A DNA stretch of 5,680 nucleotides from Candidatus Latescibacterota bacterium (GTDB lineage Bacteria; JAAXHH01; JABIQT01): the NCBI GenBank assembly GCA_018667995.1, contig JABIQT010000527.1, positions 1-5,680 of the forward strand, in the 5' to 3' direction. The notes below the pieces were generated by a model, which did not search any database, had not been told where the DNA came from, and saw nothing but the letters and a program-made list of their open reading frames with translations. Both the position numbers and the translations under genes were made by a program. Position 1 is the stretch's first letter; each line of letters opens with the position of its first letter. Below are positions 3-888 of this stretch, in pieces.

Positions 3-272
3 GTCAAAACGTTCGCGTGCGGCGATCGCCACGAGGGAGAGTACAAGGAGGACAACCGGGAAGGGTATGGGACCTACCAGTGGAGCAACGGGGACACGTT
101 CGAAGGCACCTGGGCCAACGGGAAAATGTGCGGCGTGGGGGTGAAAAAGATGGACTCGGGAGACGTCTACGACGGGGAATGGGAAGACGATGCGGCGCAC
201 GGTTGGGGGATCAAGTACTTCAAGAACGGCGACAAGCACGAGGGGGAGTACCACCAAGACCGGCGGCAGGGG
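3..272 (+). CDS. MORN-repeat protein fragment, probably foreign to the rest of the contig
   Basis: This is an open frame entering from the left edge, so the true start is outside the window. Counting the codon at base 3 as residue 1, MORN units begin at residues 10 (HEGEY), 33 (FEGTW), 56 (YDGEW) and 79 (HEGEY), each followed by the usual G-x-G step. MORN repeats form extended beta-hairpin arrays that bind membranes or proteins; no catalytic domain is visible. The fourth unit holds only to about residue 90 (DRRQG), after which the frame loses MORN character and stops at 387-389. Nearly every codon ends in G or C and local GC is about 60% by hand count, against roughly 40-50% just downstream. 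The composition and repeat style suggest a protist or algal gene, although bacterial MORN proteins exist. The family call is firm; the origin is inferred. Confidence 0.8.
30..272 (+). repeat. Four tandem MORN units with a 69-bp period
   Basis: Units start at bases 30, 99, 168 and 237, exactly 69 bases (23 codons) apart. Each opens with an aromatic or His residue, then E/D-G-x-W/Y, and carries a G-x-G or D-x-R-x-G step eight to ten residues later. The repeat is clear in protein but diverged in DNA, so it is an old coding repeat and not a recent tandem duplication. The last unit is cut at the junction with the kinase sequence. Confidence 0.8.
250..272 (+). other. Chimeric junction between MORN and histidine kinase sequences
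   Basis: Over these bases the sequence reads well in two frames at once. In the frame of base 3 it continues the fourth MORN unit (HQDRRQG). In the frame of base 1 it gives TTKTGGRGTGLGL, the F-box/G2-box signature of histidine kinase ATPase domains. Upstream only the MORN frame makes sense; downstream only the kinase frame does. The frames differ, so no fused protein could be made without a frameshift. A short stretch shared by two source sequences is the simplest explanation, either as an assembly join or a microhomology recombination. Confidence 0.75.
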
Positions 273-888
273 GACTGGACTTGGGCTTGCAACGGTTCGG
301 CGCATCGTCTCCCAGAGCGGCGGCGCTATCAAGGTGGCGAGCAGCATAGGGGCCGGCACGACATTTTCCGTGTTTCTTCCTGTTCTTAAGACAAAGAAAC
401 TTTCCGTCGAAGATGAATCCGAATCGGATCTGTCGAAGATCGAAACAACATCCGCAGAATCCCATGTCAGTATGGAATTGCAGAAGATTGATATCGACGA
501 TCAGGCTGCTGAAAACTCTCGCACAGTTCTCGTAGTGGATGACGAGGAAGAACTGAGAATTGCGTTGCGGTCGGGCCTGGAACAGTCCGGATATATCGTT
601 CTGGAGGCCTCAAACGGAATAACGGGACTGGCCTGTCTGGACCAGAACGACGGAGGAGTCGACGTAATAGTAGCGGATCTTATCATGCCTCTGATGAACG
701 GCGTTGAGTTCGTCGAGCGGGTCCAGGCCGCCTATCCAAGCGTCAAGGTGATGTTCATATCAGGGGCGTCTAATATGTCGATTCTGGACACCTCGGAATT
801 TGATGATCCCATACCCTTACTCAAGAAACCTTTCCAGCTAACCACCCTGGTGCGTCGGGTTGGAGAATTGCTTACGTCCACAAGTTGA
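250..888 (+). pseudogene. Hybrid sensor histidine kinase, C-terminal remnant (end of HATPase plus receiver)
   Basis: The recognisable kinase starts at TTK (base 250) and runs through the G2 box GTGLGLATV and the closing strand GTTFSVFLP of a HATPase_c domain. Sensor, HisKA and the N and G1 boxes are missing because the MORN sequence replaces them. After an acidic, Ser-rich linker (~375-520) comes a complete receiver domain (~523-870): acidic pair D-D at 538-543, phospho-acceptor Asp at 676-678 in VADLIMP, the conserved Ser at 760-762 in MFISGAS, and Lys at 826-828 in KKPF. The receiver should therefore accept phosphate. In the intact gene this would be a hybrid kinase with a C-terminal receiver and no output domain. 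An in-frame ATG at 190 lies in the MORN sequence and is not a credible start. No clear terminator follows. The parent gene is probably intact in its own genome; here it is cut at the junction. Confidence 0.85.

Follow-up and report, generated by a model that had tools for sequence, protein, structure and literature searches.

MORN-repeat proteins (Pfam PF02493), represented by protist MORN1 proteins and by bacterial MORN arrays, are built of units of 23 residues that carry GxG and YEGEW-like motifs; GxG is described as a MORN motif (PMC7725318). The DNA analysed here has these features in common with them; unlike MORN-repeat proteins, it holds a fragment of about four units, the fourth of which is cut. 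Hybrid histidine kinases with a CckA-like C-terminal half, such as a paralogue in the same genome with the domain order receiver, HisKA, HATPase, receiver, provide the second point of comparison: the locus has in common with them the sequence TTKxxGxGTGLGLATVxxIVxQSGG, a linker and a C-terminal receiver, but in contrast to the paralogue the front half of its kinase is missing from the contig. The third counterpart is technical. Shared k-mers are a known cause of chimeric contigs in metagenome assembly (PMC7299287), and chimeric library molecules that arise at microhomologies are a recognised alternative (PMC8674242). Chimeric de Bruijn-graph metagenome contigs resemble the present case in that two unrelated coding sequences of differing frame and GC3 meet close to the end of a contig, over a short stretch common to both, and in that the assembly is fragmented; by its sequence, a library chimera would be indistinguishable from a contig joined by a k-mer.

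Overview of the locus

The window, i.e., the whole stretch of DNA that was analysed, is an entire contig of 5680 bases (C135). The host assembly is of the metagenome type (6.06 Mb, 1165 contigs, 85% complete, 4% contamination), and no SSU rRNA was found in the host genome. The join between the MORN piece and the kinase is best read as a chimera, formed through a shared k-mer of ~21-27 bases or as a chimeric library molecule (probability roughly 0.92); it most likely arose during assembly or library preparation and not by a biological process. The following features are all on the plus strand.

3..272, plus strand: MORN-repeat protein gene fragment of four units, 5' open at the contig end (Pfam MORN E 2.4e-15)
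250..272, plus strand: junction, a good fit both to MORN sequence (frame 3) and to the kinase ATP-lid/G2 region (frame 1) by score and motif statistics
250..888, plus strand: hybrid histidine kinase, C-terminal half only (TTK, G2 box, HATPase_c end, linker and receiver; from profiles), 5' truncated by the junction
190..888, plus strand: false gene call expected from ATG 190, in which 20 out-of-frame residues precede the kinase half
3..389, plus strand: false open frame in which MORN residues run into ~38 out-of-frame residues from kinase DNA

The MORN fragment

The MORN array occupies frame 3, with three full 23-residue units (21-89, 90-158, 159-227) and a fourth unit starting at 228 that holds the register up to the glycine codon at 270-272, after which GDW appears in place of GxG; the tandem pattern of GxG and YEGEW motifs that characterizes MORN repeats is present, and is broken in this fourth unit at 276-278. 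The passage of such an array into a kinase G2 box and receiver in another frame, as described in the original prediction, was confirmed by the Pfam profiles, which place MORN in frame 3 and HATPase_c and receiver in frame 1. The predicted fall in GC3 across the switch was also found: GC3 of 3-248 is 0.841, above all 4026 host coding segments of equal length that were sampled (mean 0.569, sd 0.062, maximum 0.780), and decreases to 0.537 in the first 82 kinase codons after the junction, while GC of 1-249 is 0.606 (P 0.016). The tetranucleotide comparison that had been proposed alongside was less useful; an order-3 Markov (tetranucleotide-type) composition places 1-249 inside the host range (P 0.14), a measure that fails to separate the piece from its host and is uninformative at such length.

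Within the host genome, the only MORN match is the window's own, and a MORN search of 15 genomes of the same order gave no match. The closest relatives of the MORN half were a Prevotella MORN array (40% identity, 82 bits) and protist MORN1 proteins, with identities of 45% and 39% across ~84 residues (85 and 80 bits). A search of both halves by protein similarity had been proposed as a guide to their best taxa: the kinase half matches a host paralogue, and the top bacterial and protist MORN matches are alike in score (81.6 vs. 85.1 bits), so that the MORN donor may belong to either domain of life. The MORN half had no match in phages, and in plasmids it matched distant bacterial MORN proteins only (~42% identity at best among the matches listed); a DNA search of plasmids with 1-900 yielded no match, scans of viral contigs had no match to either half or to the exact junction, and a MORN parent contig was not found. 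The fragment is apparently foreign to the host genome. Since the window is the whole contig, the MORN piece amounts to merely the first ~250 bases of that contig.

The kinase half

The kinase half reads in frame 1 as TTKTGGRGTGLGLATV from position 250 to a stop codon at 886-888. HATPase_c is matched at profile positions 63-109 of 111 only, followed by a receiver (Response_reg E 4.2e-18); neither N-box nor HisKA was found in the kinase half, and the window therefore lacks the HisKA and full HATPase_c domain that precede the receiver in a complete hybrid histidine kinase. The half is 39% identical to residues 511-700 of an intact 714-residue paralogue on contig C340, and its GC3 is 0.59 over the whole half; by both measures it is a normal C-terminal half for the host genome. 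Ordinary bacterial genes lie on its 3' side in the same orientation; they encode an M28 peptidase, an EamA transporter, a methyltransferase and, truncated by the right contig end, a PfkB kinase. Elsewhere in the same genome (G000), two histidine kinase HATPase matches (C41:2625-2948 and C257:929-1204) contain an in-frame stop (TAA and TGA, respectively); these are pseudogenes or assembly errors.

The truncated domain bears directly on the idea that a real MORN-histidine kinase fusion protein is masked by a frameshift sequencing error. Both frames are indeed open up to the junction, as such a fusion would have it; yet no single indel restores the kinase, which lacks HisKA, the N-box and the first part of the ATP lid, with HATPase setting in at position 63, and an indel does not explain an overlap that is good in both frames at once. 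Instead of one frame with a complete catalytic domain, the window has different frames and a truncated domain, and since the kinase begins in the middle of HATPase (63 of 111), a functional fusion would be impossible in any frame. A masked fusion can be dismissed with near certainty.

The missing front of the kinase

Among the kinases that a contig end cuts on their 3' side, a candidate for the missing front is found at the 3' end of contig C730 (L131, C730:5000-6341), where a receiver-HisKA-HATPase kinase of the window's subtype (...NARDAMPEGG...VRLDVEDAG) breaks off. Identity of this piece to the C340 paralogue is 40% across residues 303-494 and 25% across the first receiver. The C730 end (to residue 494) and the window half (511-700) tile the C340 protein with a gap of 16 residues, corresponding to ~47 bases because C730 still holds one base of the next codon. 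Of the relatives of the C730 kinase that were read through, the eight strongest (L134, L135, L138, C340, L011, L123, L124, L125) all had a C-terminal half of the window type and a tail of receiver length. An exact overlap between C730 and the window was not found. The C730 end offers the kinase half a plausible neighbour other than the MORN piece, and, judged by this tiling, C730 is likely the true left neighbour of window position 250; C730 and C135 are candidates for one hybrid kinase gene.

A different front half would be supplied by contig C178 (L065), where a 1757-residue Ser/Thr kinase-ATPase-GAF-histidine kinase on the minus strand runs out at base 1 with EPFF. In this variant of the chimera, the missing front (...IFEPFF) would end one base before the window's TTK; the adjacency has zero gap and is in frame, and a fit of such one-base precision would arise by chance in a few per cent of cases (a rough estimate). 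C178, however, encodes another kinase subtype: its relatives, when read through, continue as GTGLGL(S/A)...DI...H and have no receiver (10 of 10), nine of them stopping 54-68 residues past the motif and one at 31, unlike the window kinase with its ATV..IVSQSGG and receiver, to which C730 is the better fit. C178 was rejected as the front half on account of this subtype and is an improbable source; its break one base before the window's kinase motif is probably a coincidence, although two breaks at one conserved motif are odd. Among other contigs, C533 carries a receiver-HisKA kinase that is cut right after HisKA, and was set aside as a second candidate, weaker than C730 because of the long gap; C800 was rejected since its truncated HATPase, inspected by eye, resembles the start of mutL.

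The junction sequence

For the MORN side of the junction, scores were calculated with a position table derived from 34 other MORN units. The heptapeptide HQDRRQG (252-272, frame 3) scores 11.3 bits, next to a mean of 11.5 for true units; this score is reached by random host DNA at P 1.5e-5, and 16 real kinase genes, read with an identical frame offset, gave a MORN score of 4.0 at best. On the kinase side, the pattern TT[KR]xxG[RKQE], which stands in perfect register in the kinase frame, occurs once in 380,728 six-frame positions of host DNA (2.6e-6). These values bear out the earlier reading that ~23 bases at the switch are good family sequence in both frames. Since 250-272 fits both families far beyond chance, ~21-23 bases were probably common to both parents; the protein fit on both sides is what suggests this short shared sequence at the join. 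Its outer limit is given by the flanks: the kinase requires TTY at codon 247-249, which is AGT, and the GxG motif of MORN requires GGN at codon 276-278, which is TGG, so that the common stretch would span 27 bases at most (249-275).

Even with as many as 3 mismatches in 24 allowed, the junction sequence is unique in the host genome. A genome of 6 Mb is expected to share ~2,760 21-mers and ~172 23-mers by chance with 1e9 bases of other DNA. A live example of chance sharing at the 18-mer level is provided by contig C443 (L114), where positions 30-47, near a contig end, exactly match CCGTTTTTTACCACCAAG, the coding motif for kinase FFTTK, on the opposite strand of an apparent trpE. As a relevant contig, C443 was discarded; its exact match to CCNTTYTTYACCACCAAG is a chance match, opposite trpE when inspected by eye.

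Origin of the join

The two halves come from different genes, and frame and GC3 switch between them, with the Markov measure neutral. Nearly all of the tests that were run favour a chimera, and the combination of a ~250-base piece at the contig end, a second frame, a GC3 foreign to the host, a domain cut short and the fit of another neighbour makes it by far the likeliest reading. The original proposal that DNA of two organisms had been combined is supported by the contig-end position, the sole MORN match, the GC3 outlier, the start of the kinase in mid-domain, and C730. A fragment of a MORN gene from another organism would have been joined to the host contig through the ~21-27-base stretch that both parents share by chance, either along a de Bruijn-graph path across a short k-mer where coverage was thin near the end of the contig, or in a chimeric library molecule. 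The true gene to the right of the junction would be a hybrid kinase with the domain order receiver, HisKA, HATPase, receiver; the C730 end is most likely its missing front, with about 47 bases lost in between.

The same ~23 bases of junction homology would suit illegitimate (microhomology) recombination or transfer in a real genome, by which a MORN fragment came to lie beside a broken kinase, leaving a pseudogene, and the MORN piece is no outlier in Markov composition. Against such an event, MORN is the sole one in the genome and absent from the 15 same-order genomes, the piece of ~250 bases lies exactly at the contig end, its GC3 has not been ameliorated, and the kinase half has another fitting neighbour in C730 and shows no decay, its frame being open and its domains intact. 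Recombination would need a recent entry of MORN, a contig-end position by chance, and a coincidental fit of C730; it is highly unlikely, and equally so in the form of a real event in which a bacterial kinase gene recently acquired a MORN fragment of foreign, possibly protist, origin via the microhomology.

Read as a chimera, the C135 junction is of importance for quality control only, as an example of how a chance match of ~23 bases creates a convincing but false junction. Gene calls that start in 3-249 should be discarded, and the host lineage should not be recorded as having a MORN repeat. A call from ATG 190 had been expected to produce a false fusion protein; the call is indeed false, but it would not be a MORN fusion, as ATG 190 lies in the kinase frame and its 20 leading residues are nonsense and contain no MORN peptide.

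Other features of the contig

Downstream of the kinase half, a 29-residue ORF (1159-1248; MSQPSTATFWKVAAGTGLLLLLAILLIGN) has one hydrophobic, transmembrane-like segment and a purine-rich stretch upstream; among 14 genomes of the same order it had no clear homologue (best E 0.26). It is followed by a perfect hairpin of 20 base pairs with a 4-base loop at 1290-1333 (z -8.9 for 1250-1340), without a long T run behind it and without an Rfam match; the hairpin is likely a terminator or attenuator 3' of the small ORF.
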